IMG/VR virus record: IMGVR_UViG_3300027770_000025
Location: 124,001-188,000 of that record
Strand: one strand, 5' to 3'
Source of the DNA: a virus
DNA length: 64,000 nt
Position 1 is the first letter of the stretch. Every line of letters starts with the position of its first letter. A model generated the notes under the pieces. It saw only the letters and a list, made by a program, of their open reading frames with translations. It searched no databases and was not told the DNA's origin. The position numbers and the translations under genes are program-made. Shown here in pieces: positions 11,360 to 51,730 of the stretch.

Positions 11360-12451
11360 TTACTTCTCTTTTAATAAAAACGTATTTGATATAGCTTTGA
11401 AAGAAACGCTCTTGTCTTTGTTTCTAATAACTATACCTTCTCTATCTGTTAACCCATTCAATCTTGACTTGTCATCAGCATATCTGATGATCTCATCGAT
11501 AGTTGGTGGTAATTTGTAATCGTAATTAACAACCGGTACAAGCTCTAGTGGTTTGTTATCAACATTTACTTTTTGTAGAAAATGCACCATGTCATCAAGG
11601 CCAAGGTATTCTTGAGTGTCTATATTGAAGATGTTAAAGATTAATACTGTTTGACCCTTGAGCTTATATGCATTACCTTGAATTCCCTCTCCGATAAGCT
11701 CACCCTGAATTGCATAGTTCTCTTCTAGAGTTCCTAATTTTTCTTCGATATGCAATTCTCTTGCAACCTTCCAGAATGTATTCCCTTCACTTTCTAATAG
11801 CTCCAGATTTCTGGAACACACCCCAAACACACCATCTCTAAAGTAGTATGTTGCAGAACTACCATCGAGCTTTTCTGTAACATAATATGGCTTATCCTTC
11901 ATGCTCTCGTATTCAGCAGTCATGTTCTGGATTCTTTCCTCATCAGTTTTTCTAATGAATCCAGGGAATCCGCCTTTAACTTTTCCTGATAATTCTGCTG
12001 GGATCGGCGGTTCGTATTTGAGGACACACATGTAAGCTGTAACATCAGCTCCCTCTTCGATAACTATTGCATCATCATAAGGTCCAAGCTGAAGTTGGTC
12101 ACCCCAAGGTTGTTTACTGATCCCGATTTTCATTTCATCATCCTTTTCCAGAACGCTTAACGGTAAGCAAAGTCCCTGTGAAACTTGCCCCTTTAATTTG
12201 ATGGTTCTTAATCTGAATCCTTCTAAGTCACCCATCTTTCTGTAAGATGATTTTCTTAGGAATTCGAAATCTTTTTCCATCGGTAAGAATGAATCGATTT
12301 CGAAGTAAACACAAAGATCCCCTTCTTTAAATTCTCCCTTCTTAGTAACAACCCTCCAAGAGTTAATTGTTACCATTTCTATTGCGTCTGCTCCCATAAT
12401 GGGCAATACTGATCCTATCCTTTGGATGGATGCTAATTTTCTATTTTCCAT
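11360..12451 (-). CDS. RNA ligase, Rnl5/DraRnl-like
   Basis: 363 residues. The N-terminal region (1-150) looks like the OB-type domain that precedes the ligase domain in Deinococcus RNA ligase (Rnl5). The nucleotidyltransferase motif I is TEKLDGSS with Lys194 as the adenylated lysine; FGVCSRNLEL is motif III-like and EGIVIRNKD/SFKAIS are motifs IV-V. It would seal nicked RNA using ATP. This is a second ligase, distinct from the Rnl1-like enzyme at 22135. It lies in the operon behind the promoter at 13159..13190. Confidence 0.85.
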   Translation of the reverse strand: MENRKLASIQRIGSVLPIMGADAIEMVTINSWRVVTKKGEFKEGDLCVYFEIDSFLPMEKDFEFLRKSSYRKMGDLEGFRLRTIKLKGQVSQGLCLPLSVLEKDDEMKIGISKQPWGDQLQLGPYDDAIVIEEGADVTAYMCVLKYEPPIPAELSGKVKGGFPGFIRKTDEERIQNMTAEYESMKDKPYYVTEKLDGSSATYYFRDGVFGVCSRNLELLESEGNTFWKVARELHIEEKLGTLEENYAIQGELIGEGIQGNAYKLKGQTVLIFNIFNIDTQEYLGLDDMVHFLQKVNVDNKPLELVPVVNYDYKLPPTIDEIIRYADDKSRLNGLTDREGIVIRNKDKSVSFKAISNTFLLKEK

Positions 12452-17907: not shown

Positions 17908-18635
17908 AATTTTTTATTTTGGTAATCTATAACTGAATAACCTACTGGCTCATGCACAATAGGAGCTGAGGTAGCAAATATAGGAACTCTCGTATCGTAA
18001 TTCCAATAAAGCCAAATATCCCAAGCATGCCAACCGCTATTCTTTAATTTGTTCTGCATGCTTTCTTTTTCTAATTCGAATACCATATAACAGTGTGCAC
18101 ATAGAAAATGATCAATCTGTTTATACTTACCCATATAGATCGCTGTGTCTGAAACCGAAGCTTTTGATGCAGTTCCATAACTAACTGCTCCGAATGTAAA
18201 CATTGCACCAGATCTCTGAACACCAAATTCATATGCATCATAAATCTCCTTAACCATTTCTTCTGGGCTCACGTCATACACAACATCACTTTCGATAACC
18301 AGAATAGCATCGTAATTTCCGAAGTCTTCAATAGCAGATCTATGAGCAACGTAAGCTCCGTAGTGGCCATATGATAATACCGGTGGGACGTTGATAAATT
18401 CCTTAGATGTGTTTATGATCTCCGGCTGTGCGCAATTCTCTGATGGTAAATCAGTACGATTAACAACGGAATACATCTGGGAATAACAAGCAAAATTACT
18501 AGCTATTTTTTCAAATGCAGAAATTGACGCTTTCTGTTTATCCATAGCTGAATCCCATCTTTCGGAATGAATATCTTGAGGCTGATTAGGATCCAGTAGT
18601 AAATGACAGATTTTAATTCTTGGTCTTACGCTCAT
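17904..18635 (-). CDS. probable glycosyltransferase
   Basis: 243 residues. Contains YDAILVIESDVVYDVSPEEM, a strand-loop with acidic residues where GT-A enzymes bind the metal/nucleotide sugar, and YGHYGAYVAHRSAI upstream. I cannot assign a family (GT25-like is possible). Sits between the sugar dehydratase and IMPDH/GMPR genes with 4- and 1-nt overlaps, so it is probably part of the same pathway. Confidence 0.55.
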   Translation of the reverse strand: MSVRPRIKICHLLLDPNQPQDIHSERWDSAMDKQKASISAFEKIASNFACYSQMYSVVNRTDLPSENCAQPEIINTSKEFINVPPVLSYGHYGAYVAHRSAIEDFGNYDAILVIESDVVYDVSPEEMVKEIYDAYEFGVQRSGAMFTFGAVSYGTASKASVSDTAIYMGKYKQIDHFLCAHCYMVFELEKESMQNKLKNSGWHAWDIWLYWNYDTRVPIFATSAPIVHEPVGYSVIDYQNKKL

Positions 18636-19696
18636 TATTTCTTAAATCTATTTAATGAATTTGTCGAGATCATATTCCATTTAGCGTTTCCTATGAACTC
18701 TTGTAGAGTAGTTGCATTACTGTAACTCATTGCGGAGCTAAGATAGCTTTTGAAATTTTCTGTCCATCCAGATAAAGTGTATTCAACTGGTTGCATCCGG
18801 GTAACACCCTCACTTGTTTTTAAATCTGTCTTGCCCATAGCCTTCTGAGCCTCTTTGGTGCTCATTCCCCTGAACTTCTTAAACATCTTAGTTCCGTAGT
18901 TAAAAAGATTTCTAGTCTCGTCGGAATACTGATCTATCTTCTCTCCTGGCTCGGTCCAACCTTCACCCTTCGTATTAGCTAAATAGGTGTCGCCTGCGCT
19001 CTCTAAAGTCTTATTCAATATTGAACCAAGCATAACGTGATCTGCGCCTAAAGCGAGCGCTTTAATGATGTCTGCGTAACTTTTAAATCCTCCATCTGCA
19101 ACGATTTTTGCTGGTGTTTGTAATGTACAGCTAATTTCGTAGCATTCGTGTATAAGTGAAGCCATAGGATAGCCAATTCCAGTTTGTACTGTTGTTAGAC
19201 ACCCCCCGCCATTGCCTATACCTATTCTTACTAGATCTGCTCCTGCTTCGGAGAAAATCCTATATGTTTCTGGGTTGGCAACGTTACCAACCATTAAAAT
19301 CATGCTGCCACCATATAAAGATTTGGCTTGAAACGTTGCATCGAGTAAACCCTGCATGTGACCATTTGCAATGTCAATCAGAATATAATATTTTTCCGCA
19401 ACATCTACCTTTCCGTTATCTAAAAATATCTTCTTAAACTCATCCTTTCCAAATGATAAGAAGTTATTAAAATCACTATCTAAATTAACTCCGAACGATG
19501 GTGCCTTTCTGGGTCTCACCACATTTATTCCAGATTGCTGAAATAAAGAATAATTACGATCATCTATAACAGTGTCCATTGGTGCGGTGAATAATGGAAG
19601 ATACCCATTATCATAGAAAACATCAACCTGTTTTCTTGATTCAATCCTGCTAATCGCTGCCGGCTGAATTAATATGTCGTCAAAGTCAAATTTCAT
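18635..19696 (-). CDS. IMP dehydrogenase/GMP reductase family enzyme without CBS domains
   Basis: 353 residues, TIM barrel. The catalytic loop GIGNGGGCLTT holds Cys166; ADGGFKSYADIIKALALGADHVMLGS is the phosphate-binding part, and KFRGMSTKEAQ fits the flap. The CBS pair of IMPDH is absent, so GMP reductase (GMP to IMP) or a minimal IMPDH are both possible. It would adjust purine pools. Overlaps neighbours by 1 nt on each side, firmly in the operon. Confidence 0.85.
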   Translation of the reverse strand: MKFDFDDILIQPAAISRIESRKQVDVFYDNGYLPLFTAPMDTVIDDRNYSLFQQSGINVVRPRKAPSFGVNLDSDFNNFLSFGKDEFKKIFLDNGKVDVAEKYYILIDIANGHMQGLLDATFQAKSLYGGSMILMVGNVANPETYRIFSEAGADLVRIGIGNGGGCLTTVQTGIGYPMASLIHECYEISCTLQTPAKIVADGGFKSYADIIKALALGADHVMLGSILNKTLESAGDTYLANTKGEGWTEPGEKIDQYSDETRNLFNYGTKMFKKFRGMSTKEAQKAMGKTDLKTSEGVTRMQPVEYTLSGWTENFKSYLSSAMSYSNATTLQEFIGNAKWNMISTNSLNRFKK

Positions 19697-20200: not shown

Positions 20201-20404
20201 TTACCAGCTATCGACATCGGTTAAATCTAATTCTGTTTTTGTGTTGTGACTATAAACTACAATCTCACTACCAATTCCATTTGGAGTTATTTTCCAAGTA
20301 AATAATCCATACTCACCATAAATTGCTTTAATGTGTGATAACCATTCATCATACATTTCCTGTTGTTTCTCGTTGAGTTCCTTGTGTATTACAGTATTAC
20401 GCAT
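20201..20404 (-). CDS. hypothetical protein
   Basis: 67 residues. A helical first half (NEKQQEMYDEWLSHIKAIYG) and a beta-type second half (FTWKITPNGIGSEIVVYSH). No family recognised. 3 nt after the cREC gene. Confidence 0.65.
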   Translation of the reverse strand: MRNTVIHKELNEKQQEMYDEWLSHIKAIYGEYGLFTWKITPNGIGSEIVVYSHNTKTELDLTDVDSW

Positions 20405-20407
20405 CGA

Positions 20408-20842
20408 TTATTCTTCTTGATGTCTGTTATACTCCTCTTGCTCCTGGAATTTTCGATAATTGTCCAAATACATAAAGATATTTTTACCTCCTGCTGGATT
20501 CATTGAGTGGATAATGTATTCAGGAAGATCCTGTTTTGTATCAATGCAGAAATCAACCAACCATTTAGCGCAGTCCATTCCAGTTTTTTCTTGGAATGTT
20601 TCGTAGTTCTTGTTGTAGACCTCAGTACTAGCATGCATGTCAGAAGAGTAATGTTCATCAGCCAAATCATGATCAAAAGATATGATGTTAGGCAAGCCAT
20701 TCTTCCTGATGAAGTTAACAAACTCATCATAGTTTCTAACGATAACAAATTCGTTATTGAAATAGAATTTTGCGTCTGGCATGTACTGACAGCAGTCTTT
20801 TGGATTTCTTACATCATCCAAGAATAAATTGTATGTTTTCAT
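20408..20842 (-). CDS. cyclic-phosphate-processing receiver-like domain (cREC) protein
   Basis: 144 residues. LFLDDVRNPKD at residues 6-16, VRNYDEFVNFI at 35-45, ISFDHDLADEHY at 54-65 and IHSMNPAGGKNI near the end are the order expected for cREC, a receiver-like domain predicted to process 2',3'-cyclic phosphate RNA ends and found beside RNA ligases. The assignment is from recalled motifs. Co-operonic with a P-loop kinase, a phosphoesterase and an Rnl1-type ligase. Confidence 0.75.
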   Translation of the reverse strand: MKTYNLFLDDVRNPKDCCQYMPDAKFYFNNEFVIVRNYDEFVNFIRKNGLPNIISFDHDLADEHYSSDMHASTEVYNKNYETFQEKTGMDCAKWLVDFCIDTKQDLPEYIIHSMNPAGGKNIFMYLDNYRKFQEQEEYNRHQEE

Positions 20843-20851
20843 TTTTATTTT

Positions 20852-21301
20852 CTAAAGTTTTACCTCGAATCTTTGTCTCATTTTTTCCAGAGTTTCCACT
20901 GGAACGTTGTGGACATTTGAGCTACCGTGTCTGTTCTCTACGATAAGAGTTGTAACCTGATAACCATACTTCTTAGCAAGGTCGATATAGGCTTGCATCT
21001 CCCATTCTTGTGTGAATGTATTTGACACCACAATCTCTGGATAATACTGGGGATTGACCTGATGATCACTCATTCTGGTCTCAACCTCATTTTTACACCA
21101 CTCGTGGGCTTCTTTTAATCTTGATGCGTCAAAGTTATATTCCCCAGTTTCTTTGCTGTGAAAAAACTTATCAGCTTCACAAATAGCGTACTCATTCCAG
21201 ATATGATTTGCAAAAGTGCTCTTACCTGATCCTGGAATTCCTCTCACAATAAATAGCGTTGGGTTCAGTGTGTGATATTCTTCGCTTCTTACGTTTTCCA
21301 T
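20852..21301 (-). CDS. P-loop kinase (AAA_33, polynucleotide-kinase-like)
   Basis: 149 residues. Walker A RGIPGSGKST at 20-29, then CEADKFFH and a helical segment ending VSNTFTQEWEMQAYIDLAKKYGY, the pattern of AAA_33 kinases related to T4 PNK's kinase half and N4BP2. It may phosphorylate 5'-OH RNA ends made by anticodon nucleases. The start overlaps the stop of the 57-residue gene upstream (TAATG). Confidence 0.8.
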   Translation of the reverse strand: MENVRSEEYHTLNPTLFIVRGIPGSGKSTFANHIWNEYAICEADKFFHSKETGEYNFDASRLKEAHEWCKNEVETRMSDHQVNPQYYPEIVVSNTFTQEWEMQAYIDLAKKYGYQVTTLIVENRHGSSNVHNVPVETLEKMRQRFEVKL

Positions 21302-21474
21302 TATTCAAAAATTATTCCTTCTTTTTCTACATACTCAACGAAAGCTTTTTCAGCTTCTTCTTTTGTTGGATAATATCCTATAATCTCATCATGAGTGATA
21401 GGATCATTAACTCCAAATTTTTCTCCGCCTATTGTAGAGAATACGAATGTGTCTAAAATTTCTTGTGTTACCAT
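21301..21474 (-). CDS. small hypothetical protein
   Basis: 57 residues, acidic (MVTQEILDTFVF ... EEAEKAFVEYVEKEG). Too short for a domain call. It overlaps the kinase start by one base and lies 15 nt below the phosphoesterase stop, which supports it being a real operon gene. Confidence 0.65.
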   Translation of the reverse strand: MVTQEILDTFVFSTIGGEKFGVNDPITHDEIIGYYPTKEEAEKAFVEYVEKEGIIFE

Positions 21475-21489
21475 TTTTTATATTTTTTT

Positions 21490-22131
21490 TTATTCTTCTG
21501 TGTGATGATCTTTGGGTAGAACCAGATGTTTAACGGGTCTTCCGTCCATGATCTTCAGTATCTCATTTAAGCTGTAAGGTTCAAGATTGTTTCCATCCAC
21601 ACCAACATCCATTGCCTTTCCTTCGTGGATTTTTAATCTTGGTGGTAGGTGAACATGCCCATGTAAATGCGGAACGTTCTTATTCATCCCATCCCAACTA
21701 GCTATTGGAAAGTGACAGCAAACAAATTGATATTTACCTACCACCTTACCCTCCGGTCTACGTATTTCTAAAACGTCATAACTGGAAACGTGTTTGAAGT
21801 GACCCTGTACACCTTCTTTATTATTACGAATGTGATGATCGTGATTACCTAAAAATAGAATCACGTTCTTGCAAGCAATTCTCTTTCTGAACTCTATAAT
21901 GGATTCAAATCCACCAAAGCTCCAGTCACCCATGTGGACCAGATAATCATCAGCACCAACAACTGAGTTAATGCCGCTTACAATCGCATCGTTCATTTCA
22001 CCTAATGAATGAAAGTCACGTGTACCTCTTCCACCTCCCCAATTTGACGTTGCCCGACAGATATTAGAGTGATTAAAATGCGAATCACTACTGAAAAATA
22101 TGTTCTGATTTTTTTCTAATACTATTTTCAT
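21490..22131 (-). CDS. calcineurin-like metallophosphoesterase
   Basis: 213 residues. SSDSHFNH (DxH), VHMGDWSFGG (GD), FLGNHDHH (GNHD), CCHFP and HLHGHVHLPP (GHxH) give the complete two-metal phosphoesterase set. In this operon a 2',3'-cyclic phosphodiesterase or 3'-phosphatase acting on damaged RNA is the attractive reading; other substrates are possible. Confidence 0.85.
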   Translation of the reverse strand: MKIVLEKNQNIFFSSDSHFNHSNICRATSNWGGGRGTRDFHSLGEMNDAIVSGINSVVGADDYLVHMGDWSFGGFESIIEFRKRIACKNVILFLGNHDHHIRNNKEGVQGHFKHVSSYDVLEIRRPEGKVVGKYQFVCCHFPIASWDGMNKNVPHLHGHVHLPPRLKIHEGKAMDVGVDGNNLEPYSLNEILKIMDGRPVKHLVLPKDHHTEE

Positions 22132-22134
22132 TTC

Positions 22135-23274
22135 TTAATCTTTTTTAATCCATTTTGAATCTGCTGGAATTTCTTCTTCCTTATTCCAGAAAGGTTTTTG
22201 GTATTTCGGTTTTATCATTTTCCATATGATGTGATCGTAATTCTTTCTGTCCCACATTGCAAAACAGATAGATCTTATGCTTGGTTCAACCCCACAAAAT
22301 TCTAAGTGCTCTGCAAATTCTTTTTTGGTAGGCTCGGGATCACGATCCCTATATTTTCCATATCTGAAATAGTCATGGGTTTTACCTGCTCTTTCCCCTA
22401 TTCTATATTTATAATATTGCAAATCGCTTATTGTCTCTTTAACCCATTTATCGAACTCATCTGGCACTCTATCTAAAAACTCGTCCAGGCTCTTACCATC
22501 TTTTAAAAGCTCCCAGATATCAACGTTTGAAAAGCTGGTTAGCAACCTATGTAGCCTAACGTACTCCTCACCTTTGATCTTCATTCTGAATCCAGATTTG
22601 AATTTGATTACAAATCCTTCCGCATTGCTCTCGATCATAGATTTCAGCTGTTTGTAATCCTGAACGCCGTCGTACTTCTTAACGATCTTAAATCCTAGGT
22701 TGTTGTAGAGATTAACAAATCTAATACCTTCAAGGTGTATGTCATTGTCATGTATTCTAAGCTCGTAGCCATCCTTGTTATCAATAACAGCAAGCATAAC
22801 CAAATCTTCATATCCATAATCAACTACGATTCTATTTTCAGGGTAGAGGATCTCAAAAAGGTAGGTGAATCCAGGAATTAGTTTATCGTACCTGTATTTG
22901 CTTAGTATCTCCTTACCTTTTATTGCCTGCTCAGAAACAAAGGATCCTCTGGTAGCTAAATGCCAGTCACCTTCGTAGTGGAAAAGAATCCCTAATGATC
23001 CGTCCATCTTTTCAAACACCTCAAACTCCTCATTAGGAATTTCTTCCGGCTTGTGCTCTTCCATATTAAAGAATTTTGGAAAAGTTCTAGCCACAATGTT
23101 ACCCTCACGATCTAAAACTGTACCCCTCATATTTAGCGTAACACTATCCCAAGCTTCGCTATATTGACAATCTCTTGAATAGTTATAAATATCAAGAGGC
23201 AATGTTGGGTGAGAATTCTTAATTAGAAGTCCACGCTCAATATAATCGTTCAATATGTTTAAATCATATTTCAT
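22135..23274 (-). CDS. RNA ligase, T4 Rnl1-like
   Basis: 379 residues. RGTVLDREGNIVARTFPKFFN precedes motif I FEKMDGSLG (Lys89 as the AMP-binding lysine), followed by ATRGSF (motif Ia/III), TYLFEILYPENRIV, EGFVIKF (IV) and MKIKG (V), the order of T4 RNA ligase 1, which repairs tRNA cut by anticodon nucleases. The C-terminal region is helical like Rnl1's. It sits with a kinase, phosphoesterase and cREC, the expected partners for break healing. Confidence 0.9.
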   Translation of the reverse strand: MKYDLNILNDYIERGLLIKNSHPTLPLDIYNYSRDCQYSEAWDSVTLNMRGTVLDREGNIVARTFPKFFNMEEHKPEEIPNEEFEVFEKMDGSLGILFHYEGDWHLATRGSFVSEQAIKGKEILSKYRYDKLIPGFTYLFEILYPENRIVVDYGYEDLVMLAVIDNKDGYELRIHDNDIHLEGIRFVNLYNNLGFKIVKKYDGVQDYKQLKSMIESNAEGFVIKFKSGFRMKIKGEEYVRLHRLLTSFSNVDIWELLKDGKSLDEFLDRVPDEFDKWVKETISDLQYYKYRIGERAGKTHDYFRYGKYRDRDPEPTKKEFAEHLEFCGVEPSIRSICFAMWDRKNYDHIIWKMIKPKYQKPFWNKEEEIPADSKWIKKD

Positions 23275-23276
23275 TA

Positions 23277-23744
23277 TTAGAGAATTTTATTATCGTTGTC
23301 AAGTTTTCTTTCTATGTGTGCTGCAATATCAATGATGGAGTTGCTATCAATCCAATTGTAACTTTCCCCGTTAAACACAACAGAGAAATCTCCGTCAGTC
23401 CAATCATAAACAGCTTTATCAAATTTCTTGATCTCGACTGTCTGCTTGTTAAGTTCATTTATTAGATCGTTAAATATCTTAGATCCTCCTCTATTTCTCT
23501 TGCTTCTCGTTCCAAAATATTGTGTACCCTCGTGATTAGCGCATCTTAGCATAAGATGCAGTGTCTTGTAATCCTTTACCTTCTCGTAATTGTCAAGAAT
23601 GTAAATCTTTGCTGCTTCTACAAGAGATCTTGTTTCTGCAGAAAGTTCTATGTAGAGGATTTCAAAGTTTCCACCGTTATATTTTTTACCCCCTCTGATT
23701 ACGGAAAGAACTTCTTCTTCACCTTTTGATACGTCTACTAGCAT
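23277..23744 (-). CDS. hypothetical protein at head of RNA-repair operon
   Basis: 155 residues, first gene behind the promoter at 23769..23800 and 2 nt before the Rnl1-like ligase. Lys/Asn-rich with a YFGTRSKRNRGGSK basic stretch that could contact RNA. No family recognised. Confidence 0.65.
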   Translation of the reverse strand: MLVDVSKGEEEVLSVIRGGKKYNGGNFEILYIELSAETRSLVEAAKIYILDNYEKVKDYKTLHLMLRCANHEGTQYFGTRSKRNRGGSKIFNDLINELNKQTVEIKKFDKAVYDWTDGDFSVVFNGESYNWIDSNSIIDIAAHIERKLDNDNKIL

Positions 23745-24670: not shown

Positions 24671-26119
24671 CTAGAATCTTTTCAGAACATAGAGCTTTCT
24701 ACTTGATCTGGTATACGCAGTGTACTTGATTCTATTGCGTTCTACGATTTCCCAGTTCATATCAATATCATCCTCCAGAACGAAGGTTGTGTTGTATGTG
24801 CTTCCTTGTGACTTGTGGGCGGTTATGCAATATCCGTAATTCACATCCGCATACTTTCTAAGAAAGTTATAGTACACCAACCAGCTTTTATCTTTGCCTT
24901 TCTTTTCAATAGCTCTAAGCTTTAGCATATTAGCCAGCTTTTTAAAATCCATCTCGCTGTCTTCGTGTAAGATCTGTATGTTAACCCTTACTGTTTCATC
25001 CTCATCATCAAGATAGCTAACAACAGTTTCATAATACTTTAGTGTTATTGGAAATGGTTCGGCATCAGGATGATCAGATACGTGGTATCTAAGATCATCG
25101 CTATCTATAACAAAACTATCCACACTGAATTCGTCGTTGGTGTTCAGAACTATAGACTCACCTTGAATGATTGGATTGTTTGCTATTAGCTTTTCCCCAA
25201 CTAATATCTTTGATCCTAATGCTTCGTCTCCGTAGATAACTTTACGGATAACATCATTCATGGTTGCAACAGTTTTATTTCTCCATGCAATGATCTTTGC
25301 ATACTCAGAATCTTTTTTGAATTCATCAGTGACAAAATAGCGTCTCAGTATTTCTGAGAATCCCTTTCTTGTCTCGGGAATATTGAGATTGAGAAATTCT
25401 ATTCCTTCACCTTTCTCATTTAACTTTGTAACGGGTTCAACTGGATTTTTCGATCTACCAAGCTCAGATCTAATAGCAACAGATGATTCAATAATAGCAT
25501 TATCTTTCTTCTGACGCATGATCTGTTTTAAATTAAGTGTTTTAATTCTATAACCTGCAGCCAGCTCTTCTCTAAAAGGAATACAATCGGGTTTACCTAC
25601 TGGAGGAATCTGCGCTGGATCGCCCATGCAGATAATTTTTATTCTATCTCGGTATTTTAATACTTCCTGAAACAGATCATCGTTCAGCATCGAAACCTCA
25701 TCGATAATAAGTAACTTTACAGTCTTAATCTTCGGCTGAAAATCCCCTTGGTTAACAAATTCTTGCACACCTTCCTTGGTTATCCTTTCGGTTAGACCAA
25801 GCATTTTATGAATTGTCTGAAACGAAACCCTAGGATTTTTAAGTCCACTGGTTTTCTTAATAACTCTCACTGATTTATTAGTTGGCCCTGTAACTGCTAT
25901 TCGATACCAATTATGAGTTGGGTGTATCACCTCAAGAACATATCTAACAAGCACACTCACACAATAGGTCTTTCCTGTTCCTGCCCAACCTTTCAACACA
26001 TAAACGCTATCATCTCCCTTATCACAGATGAAATCCCTTAGATCTTTAAAAGCTGTCTTCTGATCTGAGTTAAGAGATTCTAAATCTATTATTGGTTTTA
26101 TCTTTTTAACTTTAGCCAT
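24671..26119 (-). CDS. dda: Dda-like SF1B DNA helicase
   Basis: 482 residues. Walker A LKGWAGTGKTY at about 42-52, TGPTNKSVR, FQTIHKMLGL, LLIIDEVSML (Walker B near 138-145), GDPAQIPPV and the C-terminal YCITAHKSQGST motif follow the order of T4 Dda/RecD/Pif1 helicases. In T4, Dda helps start replication and remodel proteins on DNA. It is last of an early operon that begins at 26645. Confidence 0.92.
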   Translation of the reverse strand: MAKVKKIKPIIDLESLNSDQKTAFKDLRDFICDKGDDSVYVLKGWAGTGKTYCVSVLVRYVLEVIHPTHNWYRIAVTGPTNKSVRVIKKTSGLKNPRVSFQTIHKMLGLTERITKEGVQEFVNQGDFQPKIKTVKLLIIDEVSMLNDDLFQEVLKYRDRIKIICMGDPAQIPPVGKPDCIPFREELAAGYRIKTLNLKQIMRQKKDNAIIESSVAIRSELGRSKNPVEPVTKLNEKGEGIEFLNLNIPETRKGFSEILRRYFVTDEFKKDSEYAKIIAWRNKTVATMNDVIRKVIYGDEALGSKILVGEKLIANNPIIQGESIVLNTNDEFSVDSFVIDSDDLRYHVSDHPDAEPFPITLKYYETVVSYLDDEDETVRVNIQILHEDSEMDFKKLANMLKLRAIEKKGKDKSWLVYYNFLRKYADVNYGYCITAHKSQGSTYNTTFVLEDDIDMNWEIVERNRIKYTAYTRSSRKLYVLKRF

Positions 26120-26347: not shown

Positions 26348-26416
26348 TTATGGGGTTACCTTAAGCATTCTCTTCTGAAAGCTTAGCATTTTTCTTATGA
26401 GATTAAAATTCTCCAT
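26348..26416 (-). CDS. possible 22-residue basic peptide
   Basis: A start-to-stop ORF (MENFNLIRKMLSFQKRMLKVTP) beginning one base after the previous stop. Position and translational coupling are the only support, so it may be spurious. Confidence 0.3.
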   Translation of the reverse strand: MENFNLIRKMLSFQKRMLKVTP

Positions 26417-26417
26417 T

Positions 26418-26645
26418 CTATTTTTTATTATTTTCTTTTTCTACTAGATGCACGTTGTGCTTAATGTCGCCGATAACAGCTACCTTTTTTAGATCTTCTC
26501 CTTGGATGTCATACCATCCGTCGGAAAGTGGATCCTCACCCACCTTAACCGCATCAATTTTCCAGATTGTGTTTTCTTTGCCGAAATAAATCGCCATTGG
26601 CTCTAGCCATTGACGATTTCTAGAGTCCCATATTTTTATGTCCAT
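26418..26645 (-). CDS. hypothetical protein (YopX-like start)
   Basis: 75 residues. MDIKIWDSRNRQW is reminiscent of YopX-type small phage proteins; the rest is beta-like. Directly behind an early promoter. Confidence 0.65.
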   Translation of the reverse strand: MDIKIWDSRNRQWLEPMAIYFGKENTIWKIDAVKVGEDPLSDGWYDIQGEDLKKVAVIGDIKHNVHLVEKENNKK

Positions 26646-48273: not shown

Positions 48274-48840
48274 TCAGATTAGGTATTCTAAAAGCTTATT
48301 TTTTATTCCCGATTGTTTAATTCCTTCATTTGACCTGGGGGTGAGCACAAAGTTTTTTAACCCGTGTCCCTGGTTATATTCAGGTGACATGTTTAAATCA
48401 TCTATAGCAACCCAATGGGTAATCTCTGGATGTAGTTCAAGATATTTTTGTATTTCTAATATCCTCTCTTTTTCTTTCCAGCCTTTCCAATGATAAAGAC
48501 CAGCAGCTCCCTCATCGAAGTCGTAGAGATCGGGAGTTGTTGCTATAGGTTTCTTTATAATACCTTGGGATTCGTAATACTCTCCAAGTCCTTCTAGATC
48601 AGCATGCAGCTTCCAGTCAGACGAGACCACTATTTCTGCCCCCGTTTCTTGCAGCACCTCATTTAATATCAATACTGCTTTTTTATCAAAGTCATCGAAT
48701 CTCACAGTAACTGGAGCATCTTTTAACTCCCTGCTAGATTCTGGATTTTCTCTCCGATATCTAGACCATTTTTTGCTTCGCCCACCCCAATTACTCGAGA
48801 GACAAATTACTCCGTCATTATCCAAGAACAAGATTTTCAT
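48274..48840 (-). CDS. HAD-family phosphatase (RNA-repair/SAK-type)
   Basis: 188 residues. Motif I ILFLDNDGVIC, motif II VVSSDWK and motif III/IV VAIDDLNMS fit the small HAD family found in RNA-repair 'Swiss army knife' proteins and other small HADs. It could act on RNA 3'-phosphates. Start codon at 48840; the next gene upstream ends 5 nt away. Confidence 0.7.
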   Translation of the reverse strand: MKILFLDNDGVICLSSNWGGRSKKWSRYRRENPESSRELKDAPVTVRFDDFDKKAVLILNEVLQETGAEIVVSSDWKLHADLEGLGEYYESQGIIKKPIATTPDLYDFDEGAAGLYHWKGWKEKERILEIQKYLELHPEITHWVAIDDLNMSPEYNQGHGLKNFVLTPRSNEGIKQSGIKNKLLEYLI

Positions 48841-49832: not shown

Positions 49833-50048
49833 ATGAAACCTAGCAAAGAATATTTAGATCATATAGCTAAAAGACTCGAAGCAATGAATCCCAATATAGT
49901 TAACGGGGTTAACATTATACAGGAGCCATATAAAATGCCAAGCTTCGAGGACCAATTAGGTCAAACAGCAATGGCTTATTTAGCAAACAAAAAAAATCAG
50001 GAACACGCAGCTCCTGATCCTCTTTTTCCTGATAGAAACTCCTACTGA
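49833..50048 (+). CDS. small hypothetical protein
   Basis: 71 residues, starts MKPSKEYLDHIAKRLEAM. No family recognised. Its 3' end overlaps the convergent carbamoyltransferase gene by 7 nt. Confidence 0.65.
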   Translation: MKPSKEYLDHIAKRLEAMNPNIVNGVNIIQEPYKMPSFEDQLGQTAMAYLANKKNQEHAAPDPLFPDRNSY

Positions 50049-51730
50049 TTCGGTTTCCTGGTAATCACATAATTCCCTATACAAAGTGCATGCAGATTTC
50101 TTCCCCAGAATGTTCTGATCGCATGATAGGGCGATTCAACTATAGGCTCGTCAGGTCCATTAAAACTAGTATTGAGAACAAGGGGTATACCACTTATTGA
50201 TTCGAATTCGGAAATCAATTTATGATAATATAGGTTGGATTCTTTAGTTACTGATTGATATCTTGAAGTTCCGTCTATATGAACCACTGATGGTATTTTA
50301 GATTTCCACTCTTCTCTAACCCTCGCGGTCACCATCATATAAGGGGAATAAACATCAAGATCAAAAACATCCTTTTGTTTTTCGAAAAGAACCGAGGGAG
50401 CAAATGGTCTGTACCATTCCCTTAATTTAATGTCATGATTAATATGGTCTTTCATCCATGAGCATTTAGGTGAAGCTATTATCGACCGGTTACCTAAAGC
50501 TCTTGGACCAATTTCAGATCCTCCTTGGAATAGACCAATAACTTTATTTTGATTAATTAACGAAGCTACATTTTTAATTTGTTCGGATTTATCCCGATAT
50601 AGCTCAATATTAACCAGGTCACCAAATTCAAACTCTGATGAAGCTTTATCTATGTCATCTTTTATCTGGAGATCCGAATACGATCTCCCCATGTATGGAT
50701 TAAGGTACTTTCCTTTATGTGCTCCCCCGCTTTTAACGTAACCCCACCAAGCACAACCTAATGGTATACCGCTATCATCTGAACACGGAACGAAATACTG
50801 ATCTTTATATAAACCAGATTTTATGATCATCTCGTTCGTGTTGCAGTTTAGAAAAGATCCTCCGGCAACGCAAACATTCTCGGATCCAGTTAATCTTTTA
50901 GCCATTTCAACCAGATGAATTGAATTCTGTTCCTGATCCCTTTGATATAATCCAGCAACATTTGCTTTGGAATAGAAGTCAGATTTGTAATCAACCTCTG
51001 GCATTATCTTAACCGAAGGTATAAAGATGTCATACTCTCTTAAAGTTGTATGTGAAGGGATTTGGTTAACCCACTCCTGATCTGCATATGAAGCTAGTCC
51101 CATAAGTTTCCCCGCTGGCCATGAATGTGTTTTTGTATCATATACAAGTTGGAGAGATCCCTTCGTGTATTGTTCGCCTATTGATGTTTCCGAATTTTCG
51201 TCTATAAGCATTGGATACTTTATCAACTTCTTGTAAACCTCTCGATCTTCTTCCTGAGAGAACTTATAAATAGTTATACCTTCTGCATATTCATAATCCT
51301 CTGTACCTGGCCATTCCTGATTAAACCACTTTAGAGCATTGCTATTCCTTTTCAAAACGCTACCCATAGCATCAGCAACAACAACCGCAGCTTCAGAAAA
51401 GCCAGAGCTATAAAAGGTTGAATACGCATGGGCCAAGTGATGAGGAATGAAATGAAGTCTGCTTTTACCGATTCCAAAGGTCTTCTCGAAAGAATCAGCT
51501 ACAACATCATCATCCTCTACCGTATCAAATGTCCATCTGTCAACGTCTGAATACTCAAAACCGAGATATTTCAGGCAGTAATCTATAGATTCCACGGGTA
51601 AACCAGTGCTATATGCGCCATCATGTTTCACTCTAGTGATCCTTTCCTGTGATATACCCACTTTAACCTCTCCGTCTACTATGATTACACAGCCTTTATC
51701 GTGTCCTACTGAAAATCCTAAGCTTACCAT
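50042..51730 (-). CDS. carbamoyltransferase, NodU/TobZ/CmcH family
   Basis: 562 residues. The N-terminal Kae1/ASKHA-like half holds HHLAHAYSTF (His pair of the metal/carbamoyl-adenylate site) and VVVADAMGSVL; the C-terminal YrdC-like half holds LGNRSIIASP. Such enzymes transfer carbamoyl from carbamoyl phosphate onto a hydroxyl of a sugar or small molecule. It is last of the glycan operon, so it probably decorates a surface or virion glycan; a role in DNA modification cannot be excluded. Confidence 0.9.
   Translation of the reverse strand: MVSLGFSVGHDKGCVIIVDGEVKVGISQERITRVKHDGAYSTGLPVESIDYCLKYLGFEYSDVDRWTFDTVEDDDVVADSFEKTFGIGKSRLHFIPHHLAHAYSTFYSSGFSEAAVVVADAMGSVLKRNSNALKWFNQEWPGTEDYEYAEGITIYKFSQEEDREVYKKLIKYPMLIDENSETSIGEQYTKGSLQLVYDTKTHSWPAGKLMGLASYADQEWVNQIPSHTTLREYDIFIPSVKIMPEVDYKSDFYSKANVAGLYQRDQEQNSIHLVEMAKRLTGSENVCVAGGSFLNCNTNEMIIKSGLYKDQYFVPCSDDSGIPLGCAWWGYVKSGGAHKGKYLNPYMGRSYSDLQIKDDIDKASSEFEFGDLVNIELYRDKSEQIKNVASLINQNKVIGLFQGGSEIGPRALGNRSIIASPKCSWMKDHINHDIKLREWYRPFAPSVLFEKQKDVFDLDVYSPYMMVTARVREEWKSKIPSVVHIDGTSRYQSVTKESNLYYHKLISEFESISGIPLVLNTSFNGPDEPIVESPYHAIRTFWGRNLHALCIGNYVITRKPNQ

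Follow-up and report, generated by a model that had tools for sequence, protein, structure and literature searches.

The window, the whole 64,000-nucleotide stretch analysed here, spans positions 124001-188000 of virus record IMGVR_UViG_3300027770_000025 (348,582 bases), the source of which is a giant (jumbo) bacterial virus; the remainder of the record was searched family by family. On the minus strand, the window carries a compact gene cluster with a putative role in RNA repair. In the direction of transcription, the cluster comprises a 155-residue open reading frame (ORF), an Rnl1-type RNA ligase, a calcineurin-like metallophosphoesterase (MPE), a 57-residue ORF, a stand-alone P-loop kinase, a cREC protein and a small protein termed o67 (Table 1). 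An initial annotation had described the ligase, phosphoesterase, kinase and cREC genes as a co-transcribed RNA-repair set. All four ORFs are present where it placed them, intact and complete on the minus strand, and profile searches against Pfam and PHROGs confirm the four domains, including those of the kinase and cREC. The interval that it delimited also contains the 155-residue ORF and ends before the linked o67. Co-transcription is plausible from the gene spacing, as start-to-stop gaps along the cluster range from -1 to 15 nucleotides; this part of the claim gains nothing from promoter-like and terminator-like matches, which a scan found at chance level.

Table 1. Cluster genes and related features, with positions in the window.
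Feature	Position	Strand	Basis
Rnl1-type RNA ligase, 379 residues	22135-23274	-	RNA_lig_T4_1, phrog_562
Calcineurin-like metallophosphoesterase (MPE), 213 residues	21490-22131	-	Metallophos, phrog_547
Stand-alone P-loop polynucleotide-type kinase, 149 residues, without phosphatase domain	20852-21301	-	AAA_33, phrog_2071
cREC protein, 144 residues	20408-20842	-	PF20274 cREC_REC
o67, uncharacterised 67-residue protein, 3 nucleotides downstream of cREC	20201-20404	-	Linkage to repair genes
Second RNA ligase (lig2), DraRnl (DRB0094) type, N-terminal OB domain	11360-12451	-	TIGR02306, PF21189, PF09414
HAD_SAK_2 phosphatase, predicted RNA-end phosphatase	48274-48840	-	PF18143
57-residue ORF between MPE and kinase	21301-21474	-	No Pfam family
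155-residue ORF upstream of ligase	23277-23744	-	No recognised family
Dda-like helicase, 1.4 kb upstream of 155-residue ORF	24671-26119		

The ligase matches Pfam RNA_lig_T4_1 (PF09511; 1.1e-15, 58.5 bits against a cut-off of 28.3) and phrog_562 (7e-67). The residues of its KxDG, III, IV and V motifs (K89/D91/G92, E141, E219/G220 and K232/K234) are invariant in an alignment of 37 sequences. T4 Rnl1 structures are the best match in the PDB by sequence (1.9e-13), and a structural model of the ligase (pLDDT 86) also places T4 Rnl1 first (2c5u; 1.9e-18), followed by the fungal tRNA ligase Trl1. The model contains C-terminal helices at residues 272-353 and aligns with 2c5u over its full length (392 columns), but with a root-mean-square deviation of 11 and a TM score of 0.53. 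In T4 Rnl1, the C-terminal helical domain is associated with tRNA specificity. The score against the narrower NCBIfam equivalog model TIGR02308 (5.9e-19, 68.4 bits) lies below the cut-off of 242.25, and the protein is thus a wider-family relative of T4 Rnl1 rather than a T4 RnlA equivalog.

The kinase matches AAA_33 (9e-12, 45.9 bits against a cut-off of 27), phrog_2071 (7.5e-44) and the polynucleotide kinase family phrog_505 (2.4e-8). In the PDB, its profile retrieves T4 PNK (1ly1, 1.8e-4) as well as the 4gp7 group (2.5e-4), which bears the label Metallophosphoesterase; the kinase also matches the bacterial Pnkp model TIGR04075 weakly (5e-4). The lysine of the P-loop GxxGSGKS motif (K27) and the catalytic aspartate D44 are invariant among relatives, as are N94-T95 and the E122-N-R-H segment, R124 included. 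No HAD domain was found by Pfam in the 149-residue ORF. Its putative activity is that of a 5'-OH RNA kinase. In PADLOC, the kinase had matches of the P-loop type only, and DNA-level similarity to known phages was limited to short stretches of ∼70% matching the kinase.

The MPE passes the Metallophos model narrowly (4.7e-5, 24.3 bits against a cut-off of 21.5) and belongs to the PHROG phosphoesterase family phrog_547 (8.5e-41). Its metal-binding motifs (DxH, GD, GNH, H and GHxH) are complete, and D16, H18, D69, N96, H97, H140, H159 and H161 are invariant in an alignment of 31 sequences. The kinase, the MPE (weakly) and the ligase match collinear, non-overlapping parts of a single profile, phrog_8238; a fused kinase-MPE-ligase gene is suggested only by this profile and was rejected, as no fused ORF occurs among the checked loci. 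In the closest named relative (60%), from Flavobacterium phage immuto_2-6A (L003:5552-6651), the MPE gene directly follows tRNA genes for Ser, Glu and Gln.

The cREC protein matches PF20274 cREC_REC (5.6e-22, 78.7 bits against a cut-off of 27). Its invariant residues are D9, D10, D57, H58, D59, T87, H112, S113 and N115, so that the aspartate pair and the third aspartate are kept. A PDB sequence search gave no meaningful solved relatives. The profile match confirms the domain; its assigned role, the hydrolysis of cyclic phosphates, is a published prediction for a family described as experimentally uncharacterised (PMC9503650).

The two further enzymes that the initial annotation had located elsewhere in the window were both verified. 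The second ligase (lig2) is not of the Rnl1 type; it scores 192.7 bits against TIGR02306 (DRB0094-like; cut-off 151) and matches the OB domain PF21189 (3e-39) and PF09414 (6.2e-27). In several relatives, it directly adjoins the Rnl1-type ligase, the MPE or the kinase, with the ligase or the kinase at its side in L067, L084, L201 and L212, for example. The phosphatase matches HAD_SAK_2 (PF18143, 2.6e-19) and also lies beside repair genes in relatives, in the order HAD-MPE-kinase-lig2 in L201 and L212 and as ligase-HAD in L032. A HAD-centred search found lig2 as a neighbour in 10 and cREC in 9 of 29 loci.

A ligase-only scan of IMG/VR yielded 80 loci, which were pooled with the window and two isolates chosen by hand (these three not being independent) and reduced to 42 at 85% identity. 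The commonest neighbours of the ligase are MPE (35/42) and kinase (34/42), nearly always on the ligase strand, followed by cREC (16/42), which ranks third with antisense shadows set aside. The gene order is MPE-kinase-ligase in 15 loci, ligase-MPE-kinase-cREC with or without lig2 in seven (the type of the window), cREC-MPE-(lig2)-ligase in four and kinase-ligase-cREC in three, with other orders in the rest. On the ligase tree, the 11 arrangements require 12 changes, although incomplete contigs inflate the number of states slightly. Because gene order has been reshuffled repeatedly, what holds the set together seems to be function and not inherited synteny. A kinase-centred search gave MPE (26/42), ligase (18/42) and lig2 (12/42) as the top neighbours. 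The Rnl1-kinase-MPE core is also found in the unrelated isolated phages rV5 (with cREC), Aeromonas phiA009 and Vibrio Quinn. As a control, the Dda-like helicase is near the ligase only in the closest relatives. The DraRnl-type ligase, the Swiss-army-knife HAD phosphatase and o67 join the linkage group in relatives. The 57-residue and 155-residue ORFs, present in 9 and 11 loci, were not adopted as cassette members, since both are kept in the nearest relatives only, in some of which as much as ∼5 kb separates the latter from the ligase.

In a search centred on o67, 19 of the 23 non-redundant relatives have a repair gene in the flanking sequence retrieved, most commonly the ligase and the MPE (12 each), cREC and lig2 (11 each) or the kinase (10), and o67 sits directly beside varied partners (either ligase, kinase or cREC). 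The family has 63-73 residues with invariant L10, G30, I44-G45, D60, T62 and W67, and the window copy ends in LDLTDVDSW. Searches of Pfam, NCBIfam and the PDB gave no match of note. We regard o67 as a new candidate component of the repair set. A bolder and rather doubtful proposal is that Rnl1, DraRnl, kinase, MPE, HAD_SAK and cREC form a modular island whose parts are shuffled and mixed, with o67 as a small subunit or adaptor that couples the separate enzymes, as fusion does in bacterial Pnkp.

Taken together, the cluster is probably a phage cassette for healing and sealing RNA ends. Cuts made by a host metal-independent RNase would carry a 2',3'-cyclic phosphate on one end and a 5'-OH on the other. 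The cREC protein would open the cyclic phosphate, helping or preceding the MPE, which would restore the 3'-OH, possibly aided by the HAD_SAK protein encoded elsewhere. The stand-alone kinase would phosphorylate the 5'-OH, and the Rnl1-type ligase would then rejoin the broken single strand, which is most likely the anticodon loop of a tRNA, while the DraRnl-type ligase, encoded ∼8 kb away, may handle nicks in duplex RNA. We infer that each enzyme acts on RNA, in this order of steps and with tRNA as substrate. Attack on tRNA is a common form of host defence, and T4 Rnl1 acts in tRNA repair; by analogy, these two facts would make tRNA the expected substrate. End healing and sealing is the best explanation of the locus, strengthened by the intact catalytic residues, the ligase model and the conserved, reshuffled linkage. 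The initial proposal that the set heals cyclic-phosphate/5'-OH breaks is upheld to this extent, with its T4 analogy, cREC role and tRNA substrate corrected.

Several observations weigh against this explanation. The sole solved relative of the MPE is aq_1665 (1xm7, 1.6e-10), the function of which is not known, and no close relation of the MPE to a characterised Pnkp phosphatase is detectable. The cREC model (pLDDT 86) has four strands, and its nearest PDB folds are mostly receivers, weakly matched (E ≥4e-3, TM ≤0.46). Moreover, a cREC-centred search returned mostly solitary genes, with any repair gene in only 11 of 43 full-flank loci; cREC is therefore an optional member, the loosest of the cassette. 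The sequence contains no pointer to a specific tRNA, and no sequence evidence identifies either tRNA or a particular anticodon nuclease, both of which the initial annotation had invoked. Finally, the record encodes seven tRNA-like genes, including Lys(UUU), Arg(UCU), Arg(UCG), His, Cys and Met, so attacks on tRNA could instead be answered by supplying tRNAs. One tRNA-like gene (G000:C1:46421-46492) was assigned a two-base anticodon (tt) by ARAGORN and may be odd or degraded.

The predicted action of cREC on cyclic ADP-ribose or 2',3'-cyclic nucleotides, its links to NAD and ADP-ribose enzymes elsewhere (PMC7824862, PMC9503650) and the lack of a nearby ligase for most sampled cRECs would also suit a counter-signalling role, in which cREC and the MPE break down alarm molecules of the cyclic nucleotide or ADP-ribose kind with which host defence signals, with the ligase and kinase serving a separate purpose. 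We consider this unlikely, given that no gene neighbours either the ligase or the kinase more often than the MPE does. Furthermore, SIR2 (PF02146), KptA, 2H, RtcB and RlaP gave no match in the 348.6-kb record, which may itself be incomplete; the absence of the first two also speaks against counter-signalling, and a route through any of these five proteins was rejected for this record.

Inherited synteny within one phage lineage, without shared function, could explain why the nearest relatives retain the whole region, unrelated genes included. It is a very improbable account of genes that stay together as their order changes and that recur as a group in rV5, Thalassavirus and Plateaulakevirus, while only close relatives have the helicase near the ligase. 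At least as hard to credit is the view that the ligase homologue chiefly helps to assemble virions, attaching tail fibres like T4 gp63, and that its neighbours are nucleotide-metabolism enzymes. PHROG 562 is named 'RNA ligase and tail fiber protein attachment catalyst', and homologues are annotated as tail attachment proteins in several phage records; the ligase catalytic motifs are nevertheless all invariant, the recurrent neighbours are end-processing enzymes and not structural genes, and cellular homologues of the ligase pair with Pnkp.

Other genes were noted around the cluster. An IMP dehydrogenase/GMP reductase-like gene (window 18635-19696) lies downstream in the gene run of the cluster, and a Nol-like carbamoyltransferase (phrog_1601, 6e-107) is encoded at window 50042-51730. 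A protein of ∼205 residues without a Pfam match, here called X, is encoded just before the Dda-like helicase in relatives (L376:7185-7790 and L377:7369-8001) and near ligase, MPE or kinase genes in other phages. The window retains only approximately the first 14 codons of X (26378-26419), as though a deletion had removed the rest.

The concept of such a set is already published for jumbo phages, and the set described here is real and of a recognised type. What the present analysis adds is the lack of SIR2, KptA, 2H, RtcB and RlaP matches, an exchange of phosphatases between phages and cells, and o67 as a candidate component worth testing; the latter two are the parts worth following. A published prediction is made testable, namely that cREC and a stand-alone MPE heal cyclic-phosphate RNA ends where no KptA, 2H, SIR2 or RtcB is found, and the occurrence of the same core in the isolated E. 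coli phage rV5 makes tests possible in laboratory strains.

According to a published proposal (Iyer et al. 2021, PMC7824862), the ATP-grasp ligases of jumbo phages act on RNA ends that kinases, cREC and phosphatases of the HAD or calcineurin-like type have healed beforehand. A later study (Iyer et al. 2022, PMC9503650) described a V5-type cluster in which a sirtuin, a T4-like ligase, cREC and a kinase are occasionally joined by a calcineurin-like phosphoesterase. E. coli phage rV5_ev156 carries cREC, Rnl1, kinase and MPE together with SIR2. The window resembles this Escherichia phage V5/rV5 neighbourhood in its clustered cREC, T4-like ligase, kinase and calcineurin-like phosphoesterase but differs in the missing SIR2 match, the gene order and strands, and the presence of o67; its cluster is a sirtuin-less member of the V5-type kind. 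The likeness to T4 tRNA repair by Rnl1 and Pnkp, on which the initial annotation had modelled the set, is looser. The ligase best matches T4 Rnl1, and the P-loop kinase is related to T4 PNK, but T4 Pnkp is a single kinase-HAD protein, whereas the kinase here stands alone next to a calcineurin-like phosphatase and cREC, with HAD_SAK encoded elsewhere.

Among bacterial systems, the activity types of kinase, calcineurin-type phosphatase and ligase are those of Pnkp-Hen1, as in Clostridium thermocellum Pnkp, where they reside in one chain; three separate genes encode them here, the ligase is of the Rnl1 type, and Hen1 was not seen among the neighbours, for which no genome-wide search was made. The Pnkp1-Rnl-Hen1 complex likewise has a ligase encoded apart from the end-healing enzyme, but its Pnkp1 phosphatase domain is T4-Pnkp-like (PMC4411300), and the phosphatase next to the ligase in the window belongs to another superfamily. 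The closest cellular ligase relatives found (80 loci, L399-L478; 41-47% identity) are chromosomal genes, mostly of Bacteroidota, with some from cyanobacteria and Dictyobacter. In a quick tree, a single, weakly supported branch separates the phage ligases from the cellular ones. These cellular relatives, the A-rich and Shine-Dalgarno-poor start contexts of the window, and the nearest named relatives of the MPE (a Flavobacterium phage, then Cellulophaga phages, which are also among the nearest for cREC) suggest a Bacteroidota host. In many of the chromosomal loci, as in the window, end-healing genes adjoin Rnl1. A P-loop kinase protein neighbours the ligase in approximately half of the 80 loci, and all five scanned are fused AAA_33-HAD_PNKP proteins, sometimes accompanied by RlaP, in contrast to the kinase, MPE and cREC of the window. 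Judged from these domain assignments, the partner of this ligase is a T4-type Pnkp in cells and a split kinase plus MPE in these phages. End-healing enzymes thus appear as exchangeable parts around Rnl1-type ligases, and the exchange of phosphatases between phage and cell recalls bacterial Pnkp and Pnkp1, whose phosphatases likewise come from two superfamilies (PMC4411300).

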